Source: Mesobacillus sp. S13 | GTDB taxonomy: Bacteria > Bacillota > Bacilli > Bacillales > Cytobacillaceae | Direction: 5' to 3' | NCBI RefSeq assembly: GCF_020422885.1 | Contig: NZ_CP084622.1 | Coordinates: 1,135,001-1,199,000 of the forward strand | DNA length: 64,000 bases | In this document: positions 36,274 through 44,205 of the stretch, piece after piece | How positions within the stretch are numbered: position 1 is the first letter of the stretch | Layout: the number at the start of each line of letters is the position of its first letter | Translations under genes and position numbers: made by a program | The notes under the pieces: generated by a model | Database searches by the model: none | Seen by the model: the letters and a program-made list of their open reading frames with translations, nothing else | What the model was told of the DNA's origin: nothing

Positions 36274-37673
36274 ATCTGCAGGACATCGGTGTTTATTTTT
36301 CTTGGTTCATTTTAATTTATATGCTAATCGTCATCACCTTCTATTCTGTTGTCATGTTAATATCCGTCATCCAGTTAAGAAAAGAATATAGGCTGGATCG
36401 GGAGAAATCTTTTGGCGATTATGCTGAGGATATCTATACAAAGCCAGTTTCCATCATTGTGCCTGCCTTTAACGAGGAAGCGGGGATTGTCCACAGTATC
36501 CGCTCACTGCTCAGTATCAACTACCCGGTATATGAGATCATTGTAGTGAACGATGGTTCATCCGACATGACAGTGGATGTGCTGATTAAACAGTATGATA
36601 TGAAGGAAATCAAGAAAGTGATTCGCAGGCAGGTCAGCTCTAAACCTATAAAGAAAGTCTATCAGTCTCAAATACTTCCTAATCTTTACCTGGTTGATAA
36701 AGATAATGGAGGAAAAGCAGATGCACTTAACGCCGGATTGAATTTTTCACATTATCCATATGTTTGTTCCCTGGATGGTGATTCAGTCCTCGAAAGAGAT
36801 GCATTTTTAAAGGTGATGAAGCCGATCATTGAGTCAAACGAAGAAGTCATTGCCTCTGGGGGAAGCATCCGGATTGCCAATGGCTGTGAAATAAGGAATG
36901 GAGAAGTTCTTAAAATAGGATTAGCCAAGAATCCACTGGTCATCATGCAGGTAATAGAATACTTGCGTGCGTTTTTGATGGGAAGGATTGGCCTGAGCAG
37001 ACATAATTTGCTGCTGATCATCTCGGGTGCCTTTGGTGTCTTCTCCAAGCACTGGGTGGTGCAGGCTGGAGGATACCGGTCCGATACGGTCGGGGAAGAT
37101 ATGGAGCTTGTTGTCAGAATCCATCGGCTGCTGAAAGAAACACGGCAAAAGAAACGTATTGTGTATGTGCCGGACCCAGTATGTTGGACGGAGGTTCCGG
37201 AAAGCACGAAATATTTGAAGCGGCAACGGCGAAGATGGCATAGAGGGCTTTTTGAAAGCTTGTGGATTCACAGAAAGCTGACATTCAATCCTAAATATGG
37301 ACTGATTGGGTTCGTTTCCTTCCCCTATTTCTGGATTGTTGAATTCCTTGGGCCTATCGTCGAGCTCTCCGGCTATATCTATATCGTCATTTCCTTGTTT
37401 GCCGGGGGAATTTACCTTGAGTTTGCGATATTAATCTTCCTGTTGTCTTGCTTATATGGATCGATCTTTTCAGCATTTGCGATTTTGCTGGAAGAATGGA
37501 GCCTTAGAAAATATCCCAGAATATCCGATTTGCTTAAGTTATTCCTGTATTCATTGACAGAAACCATCTGGTATCGTCCGCTCACTGTGTTCTGGCGCTG
37601 TCAGGGGATCTGGCAAATGATCAGGGGCGAAAGCGGCTGGGGCGAAATGAAGAGAAAAGGTGTATCACAATGA
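36270..37673 (+). CDS. Processive family 2 glycosyltransferase
   Basis: The 467-residue membrane enzyme resembles PgaC/IcaA and related poly-sugar synthases. After an N-terminal helix (about 10-33) the GT2 domain has IIVVNDGSSD (D95), NGGKADALNAGL (D151), SLDGDS (D169, D171), the acceptor motif GEDMEL (276-281) and QRRRW at 319-323, the mark of processive enzymes. Three or more helices follow (about 345-460). It would polymerise a sugar nucleotide and export the chain. The operon's cyclase suggests c-di-GMP control; no PilZ domain is present, so the receptor is unknown. Sugar identity is not readable. It overlaps both neighbours by four bases. Confidence 0.92.
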   Translation: MNLQDIGVYFSWFILIYMLIVITFYSVVMLISVIQLRKEYRLDREKSFGDYAEDIYTKPVSIIVPAFNEEAGIVHSIRSLLSINYPVYEIIVVNDGSSDMTVDVLIKQYDMKEIKKVIRRQVSSKPIKKVYQSQILPNLYLVDKDNGGKADALNAGLNFSHYPYVCSLDGDSVLERDAFLKVMKPIIESNEEVIASGGSIRIANGCEIRNGEVLKIGLAKNPLVIMQVIEYLRAFLMGRIGLSRHNLLLIISGAFGVFSKHWVVQAGGYRSDTVGEDMELVVRIHRLLKETRQKKRIVYVPDPVCWTEVPESTKYLKRQRRRWHRGLFESLWIHRKLTFNPKYGLIGFVSFPYFWIVEFLGPIVELSGYIYIVISLFAGGIYLEFAILIFLLSCLYGSIFSAFAILLEEWSLRKYPRISDLLKLFLYSLTETIWYRPLTVFWRCQGIWQMIRGESGWGEMKRKGVSQ

Positions 37674-40600
37674 AATCACTATTCGAGAAGCACTCACATG
37701 TCTTTGTCCTGGTCTTCGTTTTTTTTACAGTATCTGCCCTTTCAAGCCCTTTTTGGCTCTGGCAATTGAAACCGGAAGAAACACTGGATATTTTGATTGT
37801 AGACAAAACTGTACCGGATAAGGATTATCGTGAACACAAAGGACTAACATGGGTTTTAAATAATGAAAAGTATATAAAGTCTGATGGCACACACTATTCG
37901 GCTGCCTCAGACTATATCGGGTTCAAGCATGTGGGTCAAGATGCTTTTTCCGGAGAAACAATCCCTGAAAATCTGGACCAATATAAGGTTATCTATCTAG
38001 CGGACCTGTATGGAGTGTACGAAGAAGAGTTTCGCGGTGAAAATGAAGCCGGCAAAAGGTCTGAGCAGCTGTATGGCGGATTGCAGCTTGAAGATGTCAA
38101 AGTGTTAGAAAGAGAGCTGCTAAAGGGGAATAAAACGCTGATCTCAGAATTCAACACCTTCGGCAGTCCGACTGAAGAATCGGTAAGGAAGGAAATGACC
38201 AATTTGCTTAATGTCCGCTGGAGTGGTTGGACGGGCCGCTATTTCACCAAGCTTGAGGGAAATGAAGTCCCTCAATGGATCATCTCCCAGTATGAGTCCC
38301 AGAACAAGGAATGGAATTTTACCGGATCGGGATTTGTATTTGTCAATGAAGGTGATTTTATAGCAGTCCTTGACCATACAAAGCTTACAGGTAACGGGTT
38401 GGATTTCAAGCTAACCGAAAAGGGCAAGGACCAATTCACCTCTGACCTTGATACAAGCTATATCTACTGGTTCGATATTGTTGAGTCATTGGATGAGAAT
38501 GAGGTACTGGCAAGCTATCATTTGCCAATCAAGGATGAGGCTCAGGCTGAATTAGCGGAGTATGGAATTCCCGACAAGTTTCCTGCTGTCATCCATCACC
38601 AAAACCGCCAATTTTCAACCTATTATTTTGCGGGTGATTATGCAGATGAGGCAGAGGTTCCGGATATCTATCAAACGAAAGGTTTAACTTCCTGGAAAAA
38701 AGCCGTTGAAGGAAAACGGTCTTTTTACTGGTCAGCGTATGTACCGATGATGAAAGAAATCCTTTCGAATGGCTTACATGGAGCTTCCAAAGAGACGGAA
38801 GCCCCTGAAGTTGCCGTTGCTGGGGATATCCAGTATAACAGCAGCAACTCCGCCGATTCCATCCAAATTCAAAAAGATGGAAAATGGGAGGACATCCTGA
38901 TAAAAGGCGTCAATATCGGTATGGGGAAGCCCGGAGCCTTCCCAGGTGAAGCGGCCATCACAAAGGAGGAATACTTCCGCTGGTTCAAGCAGATTGGCAG
39001 CATGAATGCCAATGCAATCCGGATTTACACTTTACATCCTCCTGAATTCTATCAAGCTTTCTATGAATATAATCAGCTAGCAAAAGAACCTTTATATTTG
39101 TTCCATGGCGCCTGGGTGAATGAAGAAATCATTGTTGAAAGCCAGAATGCTTTTTCAGATGAAGTAGTGAAGGATTTCAAGCGCGAGTTAAAGCAAATGG
39201 TGGATATTGTTCATGGAAATGCAGATATAGCGCCAAGTCCCGGCCATTCATCCGGAAAATATGAATATGATATTTCCCCATATGTTCTGGGATTCATCAT
39301 CGGAATAGAGTGGGATCCTGGAGCTGTCCTGAGCACGAACACTATCAATAATGAGATGGAGCCATTCGCTGGAACGTATTTCAGGACGGAAAATGCAGAG
39401 CCCTTCGAAAACTGGCTTGCATCAATGATGGAATTTACTGCTGACTACGAAACAGAGCACTACCAGTGGCAGCATAGTATCAGCTTCACGAATTGGGTGA
39501 CGACTGATTTACTGGAGCACCCAAGTGAACCGCTTGAAACGGAAGACATGGTGTCTGTGAATCCAAATCATATACAAACAAACAAAGCGTTCAAAGCTGG
39601 AATGTTTGCCTCGTATCATGTTTACCCTTACTATCCGGACTTTTTGAACTTTGATGAAGCTTATCAGAATTATAAGGATCAGAAAGGTAGAAAGAACCAT
39701 TATGCCGGTTATTTAAGGGATCTCATCCAAGCCCATGACATGCCAGTCCTGATTGCAGAATTTGGTGTCCCTTCGTCAAGAGGACAAACTCATAAAAATG
39801 ATTCTGGAATGAATCAGGGCTTCTTGAATGAACAGCAGCAGGGTGAAATGAACAGTTTTATGTTCGATTCGATGGTTGACGAGGGTGCAGCCGGGGGCCT
39901 TGTGTTCGCATGGCAGGACGAATGGTTCAAACGTACATGGAACACGATGGATTATGATAACCCGAACCGACGGCCTTTTTGGGCTAATCGCCAAACGAAT
40001 GAACAAAATTTTGGACTAGTAAGCTTCGAGCCGGGCAAAAAAAGCCTGCCTATGATTGTGGATGGAAGAAAAGGTGACTGGGAAAAGAAAGGGGTTGAGC
40101 CTCTTGGTGATTCGAACACCGGATCAATCAAGCGGGTGTTTACAACCTCGGATGAATCATCTCTTTATTTCAGGCTTGACCTGGAAAAAGCTGTTGACTG
40201 GTCAGAGCAAGCCGGCTACCTCTTCCTGGATACCATTCCAGACCAGGGGCAGCACCATGTCCAATTGGATGATGGACAGGAAATAGATTCTGAATTTGGC
40301 ATTGATTTTATCATAGAACTTAAAGGGCCAGACGAATCAAGGATTCTTGTCGACAGTTATTATGACCTGTTCTACTATCAGTACGGAAAAACGCTGAAAA
40401 TGATACCTGAGGTTAAGTATGCTGATAAAAAAAACAATGGCATGTTCCATCCGATTCGACTTGCGCTCAACAAGGAGATGATTCTTCCTGAAGATGGCAG
40501 GAAAGTACCATTCCAATCATATGAAACAGGGAAACTTAAATTCGGAACTGGCAATCCGGCTGATGAAAATTTTGATTCTCTGACCGATATAAGTATAAGC

Positions 40601-40921
40601 AATGACAAAAAGACGGTGGAAATCCGGATTCCATGGCAGCTTTTGAATGTTAAGGATCCAAGTACGAAAGAGATAATCGCCGATCTTTACAAAACAGGCC
40701 TGAAGGGAAGTAAATACATCGATGGAATCGATGTGGCTGCGGCTTGGGTCTCAACAAGAGAGGATGTTACGGTCCTGCCTGAAAACCAATCCATAATAAA
40801 CAGCATGTTCTTCTACGAATGGAAGGGTTGGGAAGAACCGCAATATTATGAACGGCTGAAAAAATCCTATTACATTATGAAAGAAGTTTTTGAAAAAGCA
40901 GGGAACGAGGAGAACAATTGA
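37670..40921 (+). CDS. Large membrane-anchored glycosidase-like protein
   Basis: This 1083-residue protein has one N-terminal helix (about 11-33) and should face outward. Residues about 40-380 look like a class I amidotransferase/ThuA-like alpha/beta domain (TLDILIVDKTVPDKDYREHKG, YKVIYLADLYGVYEEEF). A TIM barrel of glycosidase type runs from about 400 to 790 (VNIGMGKPGAFPGEAAITKEEYFRWFKQIGSMNANAIRIYTLHP). Candidate catalytic acids are E547 in GIEWDP and E697 in IAEFG, 150 residues apart as in clan A barrels. The end (about 800-1070) is a beta-sandwich like CBM9/DOMON. It probably trims or binds the polymer made by the preceding transferase. The substrate is unknown. Confidence 0.8.
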   Translation: MKSLFEKHSHVFVLVFVFFTVSALSSPFWLWQLKPEETLDILIVDKTVPDKDYREHKGLTWVLNNEKYIKSDGTHYSAASDYIGFKHVGQDAFSGETIPENLDQYKVIYLADLYGVYEEEFRGENEAGKRSEQLYGGLQLEDVKVLERELLKGNKTLISEFNTFGSPTEESVRKEMTNLLNVRWSGWTGRYFTKLEGNEVPQWIISQYESQNKEWNFTGSGFVFVNEGDFIAVLDHTKLTGNGLDFKLTEKGKDQFTSDLDTSYIYWFDIVESLDENEVLASYHLPIKDEAQAELAEYGIPDKFPAVIHHQNRQFSTYYFAGDYADEAEVPDIYQTKGLTSWKKAVEGKRSFYWSAYVPMMKEILSNGLHGASKETEAPEVAVAGDIQYNSSNSADSIQIQKDGKWEDILIKGVNIGMGKPGAFPGEAAITKEEYFRWFKQIGSMNANAIRIYTLHPPEFYQAFYEYNQLAKEPLYLFHGAWVNEEIIVESQNAFSDEVVKDFKRELKQMVDIVHGNADIAPSPGHSSGKYEYDISPYVLGFIIGIEWDPGAVLSTNTINNEMEPFAGTYFRTENAEPFENWLASMMEFTADYETEHYQWQHSISFTNWVTTDLLEHPSEPLETEDMVSVNPNHIQTNKAFKAGMFASYHVYPYYPDFLNFDEAYQNYKDQKGRKNHYAGYLRDLIQAHDMPVLIAEFGVPSSRGQTHKNDSGMNQGFLNEQQQGEMNSFMFDSMVDEGAAGGLVFAWQDEWFKRTWNTMDYDNPNRRPFWANRQTNEQNFGLVSFEPGKKSLPMIVDGRKGDWEKKGVEPLGDSNTGSIKRVFTTSDESSLYFRLDLEKAVDWSEQAGYLFLDTIPDQGQHHVQLDDGQEIDSEFGIDFIIELKGPDESRILVDSYYDLFYYQYGKTLKMIPEVKYADKKNNGMFHPIRLALNKEMILPEDGRKVPFQSYETGKLKFGTGNPADENFDSLTDISISNDKKTVEIRIPWQLLNVKDPSTKEIIADLYKTGLKGSKYIDGIDVAAAWVSTREDVTVLPENQSIINSMFFYEWKGWEEPQYYERLKKSYYIMKEVFEKAGNEENN

Positions 40922-43779: not shown

Positions 43780-43878
43780 GCAGAATGCAGGTTAACAGAA
43801 TGTAGGCGTAATAGTGGATGGATGATGACGGCAGGCGATATACTATTTGTACAAAAATACAGCGGGGAGGAATCCAAT

Positions 43879-44157
43879 GTGGCAAATAACTCGTTAACCC
43901 TATTCACAAGGCCAATGTGAACAGATTGCCAGGAAGCGAAGGAGTTTCTTTCGCGGAATCAGGTAGAATATGAAGAAATCAATGTCCAGGGAGAACCTGA
44001 ACAGGAGAAAAAGCTTAAAGAAGTGACGGGTACTGTTATTGTACCTGCATTCATTTTCATCAGCACGAAGCTCTTTTTCATGAAGGATAAAAAGGTCTTG
44101 ATCGGTTTTGCAAATAACAGGAGCGAAATTGAAAAACTGGTTGGAAATTTGAAATAG
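43879..44157 (+). CDS. Glutaredoxin-like protein with in-frame TGA at the active-site Cys; candidate selenoprotein
   Basis: GTG at 43879 follows GGGGAGG by eight bases. The 93-codon frame runs to TAG at 44155-44157 with one interruption, TGA at 43918-43920 (codon 14). The reading is ...LTLFTRPM-TGA-TDCQEAKEFL, then EINVQGEPEQEKKLKEVTGTVIVPAFIF with the glutaredoxin cis-proline. The TGA replaces the first Cys of the C-x2-C site (C17 is the second), the usual place of selenocysteine in redox selenoproteins. A hairpin at 43936-43954 fits the bacterial SECIS form. Everything else is intact: start, frame, terminator. The alternative is a pseudogene by one Cys-to-stop change. If read through, the product has 92 residues. 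Confidence 0.7.
43936..43954 (+). promoter_or_regulatory. Bacterial SECIS-like hairpin
   Basis: GCGAAGG (43936-43942) pairs with CUUUCGC (43948-43954), including one G-U pair, around the loop AGUUU. The G at loop position 2 is 24 nt after the TGA. The published bacterial SECIS model asks for a G in the first two loop positions, about 16-37 nt from the UGA. The hairpin lies in codons that also fit the protein. Confidence 0.55.
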
Positions 44158-44171
44158 AGGATAGACAAATG

Positions 44172-44205
44172 AGGGTGTCCATTTAATTTTGGGACATCTT
44201 TTTAT
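44172..44205 (+). terminator. Terminator after the glutaredoxin-like gene
   Basis: GGTGTCC (44174-44180) pairs with GGACATC (44192-44198), one G-U pair, followed by T6. Confidence 0.75.

Follow-up and report, generated by a model that had tools for sequence, protein, structure and literature searches.

A probable selenocysteine glutaredoxin of Mesobacillus sp. S13, from a family often encoded near copper genes

Introduction

Selenocysteine (Sec)-containing glutaredoxins are UxxC selenoproteins of few bacterial species, according to the available sections of PMC13188914, PMC1794560 and PMC9312934. Those of Geobacter sulfurreducens and Alkaliphilus are found in selenoproteome surveys (PMC1794560, PMC13188914), and the sections of these two papers available to us name neither Bacillales nor copper for them. 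The glutaredoxins cGrx1 (PDB 7c10) and cGrx2 (PDB 4tr0) of Alkaliphilus (Clostridium) oremlandii have the same glutaredoxin fold as the protein described here, with a CxxC/UxxC site. We take cGrx1 to be a Sec form, the organism of 7c10 to be A. oremlandii, and 7c10 to be the Cys form; the motif of cGrx1 is presumably UPYC, compared with UTDC in our protein. References 85 and 109 of PMC13188914, as cited there in the available sections, fit cGrx1 as a Sec form.

We describe here a gene of Mesobacillus sp. S13 whose product shares with the Geobacter and Alkaliphilus proteins the Pfam family PF00462, the UxxC motif and the selenoprotein family Grx. A sequence-only reading of the locus had proposed a glutaredoxin in which TGA stands for the first Cys of the CxxC site. 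No Sec-glutaredoxin of Mesobacillus was found in the titles and abstracts of the literature searched, and the main text of PMC5029168, as far as available, makes no mention of glutaredoxin.

Results

The window analyzed is a stretch of 64,000 nucleotides from the Mesobacillus sp. S13 genome (NZ_CP084622.1, positions 1,135,001 to 1,199,000). On its forward strand, the frame at 43879–44157 encodes 92 residues followed by a TAG stop and reads VANNSLTLFTRPM*TDCQEAKEF...GNLK* (asterisks, stop codons). The only in-frame TGA, at 43918–43920, is codon 14 and occupies the first, nucleophilic position of the C-x-x-C motif (UTDC). The TGC at 43927–43929 encodes Cys17, the presumed resolving cysteine, which is invariant in the 17 rows of our alignment A1 and is Ser in three distant loci (L108–L110). 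The GTG start is preceded at a distance of 8 nt by a Shine–Dalgarno sequence, GGGGAGG (43864–43870), and AGGAGG-type sites occur at the equivalent place in forward-strand homologs. The frame is followed at 44171–44201 by a terminator-like hairpin (10 bp, loop of 11, z −2.0) and a U-rich tail, which was missed by a consensus terminator scan that allows loops of 3–8. Thus, the active-site TGA, the strong ribosome binding site and the terminator of the sequence-only reading were all borne out. The gene stands alone, flanked by a histidine kinase and a dicarboxylate symporter. Elsewhere in the window, a 1083-residue ORF at 37670–40921, beside a response regulator gene, has no Pfam match at E ≤ 0.001.

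With the UGA read as a residue, the protein matches Pfam PF00462 (Glutaredoxin) with 51.4 bits, against a cut-off of 22.9. A structural model built from A1 with Cys at the site has a mean pLDDT of 91.3 and the order of elements E-H-E-H-E-E-H. The top PDB match is 7c10, both by sequence profile (8e-11) and by fold (5e-5, 32% identity, probability 1.00, TM 0.68 on the query). Pro56 (in IVP; 44044–44046) is invariant, and by analogy would be the cis-Pro position of the thioredoxin fold. The window protein passed no NCBIfam cut-off. Its best match is TIGR02196 (YruB-family glutaredoxin-like), with 46.6 bits against 88.55; a second glutaredoxin of the same genome, with a UPYC motif, is nearer to this family at 84.7 bits, still just below the cut-off. 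The score for NrdH (TIGR02194) is 36.6 bits, against a cut-off of 85.75. The Uxx-star families NF041212, NF041211 and NF041114 are likewise small glutaredoxin-like selenoproteins, but the window protein lies below their cut-offs, with 44.3, 36.3 and 13.6 bits against 66, 100 and 72. Metal ligands have been proposed for Uxx-star proteins, according to the available part of PMC13188914.

Downstream of the UGA is a SECIS-like hairpin, GCGAAGG-AGUUU-CUUUCGC (43936–43954), in which 43936–43942 pairs with 43948–43954 around the loop AGUUU (43943–43947), with G at loop position 2. A spacing of 22 nt separates the UGA from the loop, which places the loop G 24 nt downstream of the UGA. The bSECIS limits given in the available sections of PMC13188914 are a stem of 4–16 bp, a loop of 3–9 nt, a G at loop position 1 or 2, and 16–37 nt from the UGA. 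By comparison with these published limits, rather than by a bSECISearch score, the hairpin lies within them (7-bp stem, 5-nt loop with G as its second base, spacing of 22 nt), as the sequence-only reading had claimed. Taken alone, the hairpin is weak evidence: the z of the single-sequence fold is only −1.73 and, as a gauge of chance, 66 of the 2901 TGA trinucleotides counted over the two strands of the window (2.3%) have a similarly placed hairpin. An Rfam scan of the locus found nothing near a gathering score. The case is carried by the comparative data: a conserved TGA, a hairpin conserved with compensatory changes, and the presence of the Sec machinery.

Standard base pairs fill 193 of the 196 pair cells of the 28 distinct Sec sequences, all of which have the G at loop position 2; the weaker hairpins are those of genomes G402 and G007, which keep five and six of the seven pairs. 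The corresponding values for the 22 distinct Cys sequences are 77 of 154 cells and G in seven. The mean folding energy of nt 13–45 is −9.2 kcal/mol in 30 Sec loci, versus −3.2 kcal/mol in 24 Cys loci. The outer pairs covary (GC, UA, UG in one; CG, UA, GC in the other). The covariation, which rests on these two variable pairs, is 0.241, as high as in none of 500 shuffles (0.113), and at most 0.081 when slid; two of the five covariation measures were unexceptional, being reached by 235 and 35 of the 500 shuffles. When codons were resampled with the protein fixed, equal pairing was obtained in 0.34% of draws for the window sequence and in 0.3–8% over nine hairpin types.

A survey of 61 genomes included the Mesobacillus sp. 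S13 genome and 20 relatives of the same genus. The gene was found in the former and in 18 of the latter (19/21), and every copy found carries the TGA; it was not found in G010, which is 66% complete, or in G016. The selA match of G016 (L066; G016:C1:1845480-1846866) is split over two frames, and this genome retains the Sec-UPYC glutaredoxin while the UTDC one is absent, a pattern that represents either early loss of the Sec trait by real decay or an assembly error. The 11 closest relatives in named records all have TGA, and are from Mesobacillus (five: boroniphilus, selenatarsenatis and three subterraneus), Bacillus sp. ISL (four), Cytobacillus (one) and Chryseobacterium (one). The 75 codons 3′ of the UGA contain no further stop in any of the 19 loci of the genus, and the decay around the codon that would have spoken against the sequence-only reading is not seen. 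Pooled dN/dS (Nei–Gojobori, 19 loci) is 0.104 after the UGA and 0.117 before it, and the synonymous difference, at 0.132 across the codons of the hairpin, rises to 0.610 in the codons beyond. That the frame downstream of the UGA is under purifying selection and functional is well supported by these comparisons. A sequencing error, also considered in that reading, is very unlikely, since the TGA is present in 19 separate assemblies.

Twenty-six relatives were found in a protein database, of which 16 were examined. All 11 of those that cover the site, which are metagenome proteins, have W there, which fits TGA read under another code. The five NCBI-sourced entries are each 50–65 residues long, and the three examined start after the UGA. 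A conserved selenoprotein thus appears to have been overlooked in public annotation.

The genome of Mesobacillus sp. S13, one contig of 4,806,131 bases, has the complete set of Sec genes for which the sequence-only reading had recommended a search: selA (561.6 bits, cut-off 267.9), selB (364 bits, cut-off 242), selD (394.7 bits, cut-off 125) and tRNA-Sec (67.1 bits, gathering score 47), with the anticodon UCA by ARAGORN. The selA and selD genes adjoin at 2575976–2578819. There is an in-frame TGA within selD, followed by a strong hairpin (L064:3924; G000:C1:2577923), and the selenophosphate synthetase is probably itself a selenoprotein. The UPYC Sec-glutaredoxin has 77 residues (L063:4738-4971; G000:C1:2108737-2108970) and a hairpin with the loop GGG after its UGA. 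Within the genus, 20 of the 21 genomes have it with one TGA, as does G039, and all 21 also have a paralog of it without an in-frame stop, at 69–75% identity. Two matches to formate dehydrogenase alpha also contain an in-frame TGA, one over the family cut-off (L116; G000:C1:2836740-2838761) and one below it (L120; G000:C1:4685255-4686007); the hairpins after both UGA codons have the loop GGUCU.

The order was searched with alignment A1 in 397 genomes, of which 105 matched at E ≤ 1e-9, many with more distant glutaredoxins; the family set was limited to matches with an E of at most 5e-20, to which the genus was added. Fifty-eight loci were entered, of which 30 have TGA, 24 have TGC or TGT (Cys) at the codon, and four were unmatched by the search pattern. 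These last, L106 (a second copy in G071), L107 (G265), L111 (G266) and L112 (G072), have no in-frame stop, and L106 and L107 read CSDC. L108–L110, which read CEDS and are without the second Cys, were counted as Cys loci, and a single TAA inside the match of G111 is the end of its frame. Outside Mesobacillus, TGA loci occur in 11 genomes of eight genera. The prediction that homologs would carry a Cys codon at codon 14 held in other genera, with TGC or TGT at exactly that position. A search of 398 genomes of the phylum at E ≤ 1e-14 gave no further clear member: two of the genomes matched belong to the genus, and two weak matches with an in-frame TAG or TAA were left out of the counts.

Among the 36 family genomes outside Mesobacillus, selA is over its cut-off in all 11 with TGA and in 11 of the 25 without. 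With G265, G266 and G072 left out, the split of selA is 11/0 for Sec and 11/11 for Cys (Fisher p 0.005, without regard to relatedness); with relatedness taken into account, which leaves two to four independent pairs, the association is not demonstrated. A tree of the family (53 rows, 92 columns), which has long branches, needs four changes between Sec and Cys, with three to four over bootstraps and two forced by well-supported branches. Constraining Sec to one clade gives an AU p of 0.05, compatible with one origin or with several. A near-identical SECIS core, AARGAGUUUCUUUC, is found in distant Sec branches.

Neighborhoods reaching about 6 kb to either side of the gene, or to the contig end where that came first, were collected from 30 genomes outside Mesobacillus (10 with TGA, 20 without), and their ORFs were clustered. 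A CopA/CopZ-type (HMA) cluster lies within the stretch in 22 of the 30, or 23 with G196, in which an HMA gene is about 0.9 kb from the glutaredoxin; counted by genus, this is 12 of 18. HMA matches number 3–14 per genome; even with every match counted as a separate site, chance would place one within 6 kb in at most about 0.6 of the 30 genomes. Four more genomes have a multicopper oxidase (G068, G402, G287) or a CsoR-type repressor with a cupredoxin (G153), giving 27 of 30 (8/10 Sec, 19/20 Cys) under a definition of copper genes that was widened after the data had been seen, while the chance estimate applies to the HMA genes only. The count becomes 28 if G036 is taken too, which has only a cupredoxin-domain gene, 4.4–4.8 kb away, and no copper gene was found among the ORFs scanned in G053 and G111. 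Representative neighbors in the subset scanned are over the NCBIfam cut-offs for CopZ, the copper ATPase TIGR01511 and CopY/TcrY, and PF02583 repressors are also found. The loci L145 (G389) and L146 (G112) have the order copY-like, copZ-like, copA-like, grx (Cys form), with about 15–20 nt from copA to grx and a further copZ-like gene 3′ of grx; the genes scanned in these two clusters were the copY-like gene, the copA-like gene and the copZ-like gene after grx of G389. A family of His-rich proteins (cluster 5; L127:5250-5951, L138 and others) is encoded no more than 6 kb from the glutaredoxin in nine genomes, and the one member scanned has no Pfam match.

In Mesobacillus sp. S13 itself, no copper gene was found within 6 kb among the seven larger ORFs scanned, one of which has no Pfam match, and none was recognized by eye in two other Mesobacillus stretches, L152 and L153. 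The copA–copZ pair of the genome has no glutaredoxin among the listed flanking ORFs.

Discussion

We are confident that the window gene encodes a translated Sec redoxin, and from the comparisons made here its in-frame stop codon is almost certainly read as selenocysteine. The recoding of the UGA, the conserved hairpin, the function of the frame after the UGA and the predicted fold are each well supported by sequence comparison. The sequence-only reading is supported, and three features go beyond it: the copper genes near the relatives, the exchange of Sec and Cys over the order, and the additional UPYC Sec-glutaredoxin of this genome. A pseudogene, in which a nonsense mutation fell by chance on the active-site codon and the remaining frame is a remnant, would account for the in-frame stop and for the five short NCBI-sourced database entries. 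The sequence-only reading had not expected a simple nonsense mutation to strike this one codon. We consider a pseudogene barely conceivable, given that 19 of the 21 genomes of the genus, as well as 11 from other genera, carry the identical TGA, that the post-UGA dN/dS is 0.10 over 75 codons without another stop, and that synonymous change is suppressed in the hairpin codons. Suppression of the UGA as Trp or another standard residue, without selenium, would agree with the W in the eleven metagenome proteins, the residue that gene prediction under a different code would put there. But of the seven larger genes checked in the window, four terminate with TGA, which makes UGA an everyday stop in this host; the genome has tRNA-Sec (UCA) and the other Sec genes; and homologs without TGA have Cys at the codon. 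Such a reading is exceedingly improbable. Could the hairpin simply follow from conservation of the peptide AKEFLS, or serve some local regulation, with the UGA mostly terminating and the downstream part rarely made? The peptide does favor pairing, with a mean of 3.4–4.8 of 7 pairs when synonymous codons are drawn at random. However, full pairing is reached in only 0.3–5% of the draws for the seven fully paired types, and the two types with five or six pairs are reached in 8%. The outer pairs also covary, and the Cys homologs, which use other codons, lose the hairpin, leaving this explanation very unlikely.

What is the function of the protein? The gene could encode a real selenoprotein that is a general thiol-disulfide reductase, serving for example methionine sulfoxide reductase, peroxiredoxin or ribonucleotide reductase, with the copper neighborhood of its relatives incidental or lost. 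The isolated position of the window gene between the histidine kinase and the symporter is in keeping with this, as is the best-studied Sec-glutaredoxin, which serves a methionine sulfoxide reductase according to the title of reference 85 of PMC13188914. Against it, 23 of the 30 genomes outside Mesobacillus have HMA genes no farther than 6 kb away, where at most about 0.6 is expected. We regard a general reductase as a serious possibility, short of an even chance. For the family as a whole, a copper-thiol role is the most likely one because the gene is near copper genes in most relatives, and gene context makes a copper-stress redoxin somewhat probable. The copper role is weaker for the Mesobacillus gene since it stands alone there, and we extend it to this gene only tentatively; the gene may have moved out of a copper cluster, or may serve general thiol repair.

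Following the preferred reading of the gene as a Sec redoxin, SelB and Sec-tRNA(UCA), directed by the hairpin 22 nt downstream, would read the UGA at codon 14 as Sec, yielding a small selenoprotein of the cytosol with a glutaredoxin fold. The chemistry that we propose follows from the glutaredoxin family. Sec14 would be the nucleophile, attacking a disulfide or an otherwise oxidized thiol, and Cys17 would resolve the mixed selenylsulfide, like other U/CxxC redoxins. Bacillaceae use bacillithiol; the use of glutathione by the window protein is doubtful, and we infer that its reductant is thioredoxin reductase or bacillithiol. In the relatives, the family may keep the Cu(I)-handling thiols of CopZ and CopA, or thiols damaged by copper, reduced. 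A broader proposal is that redoxins of copper stress form an order-wide family whose active site switched several times between Sec and Cys, and in which the Sec form acts on the Cu(I)-binding thiols of CopZ and CopA or binds Cu(I) itself; we consider this conceivable but rather doubtful.

The near-identical hairpin core in distant Sec branches leads us to favor an ancestral Sec form from which Cys forms arose repeatedly. It suggests that the hairpin eroded with the change from Sec to Cys, even in genomes that kept selA. This direction runs against the change from Cys to Sec, the trend reported in PMC1794560 for most bacterial selenoproteins. Sec and Cys versions occur in related bacteria with similar neighborhoods, and some Cys forms occur alongside selA, so that the question of why cells pay for Sec becomes testable. 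The same survey, of 2006, counted three selenoproteins in Bacillales, and the family described here would connect the use of selenium with copper handling where few selenoproteins had been counted.

Compared with known systems, the window protein is 32% identical to cGrx1, which is from another order, and differs from it by the copper genes near its relatives. Glutaredoxins have been associated with copper in mammals, where Glutaredoxin 1 is a glutathione-dependent Cys form, and in the proteobacterium Acidithiobacillus ferrivorans. The mammalian protein is linked by the title of Singleton 2010 to the copper P-type ATPases ATP7A and ATP7B. In A. ferrivorans ACH, grxA is in a possible copB–copZ operon (PMC7463520), so that a glutaredoxin gene lies beside a copper ATPase and a copper chaperone, as in the present family; Sec is unmentioned in the available sections of that paper, and the likeness noted here concerns gene placement. 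A copper link of this kind therefore has a precedent, and Sec-glutaredoxins are already known as a kind; what is new is the copper neighborhood of this family.
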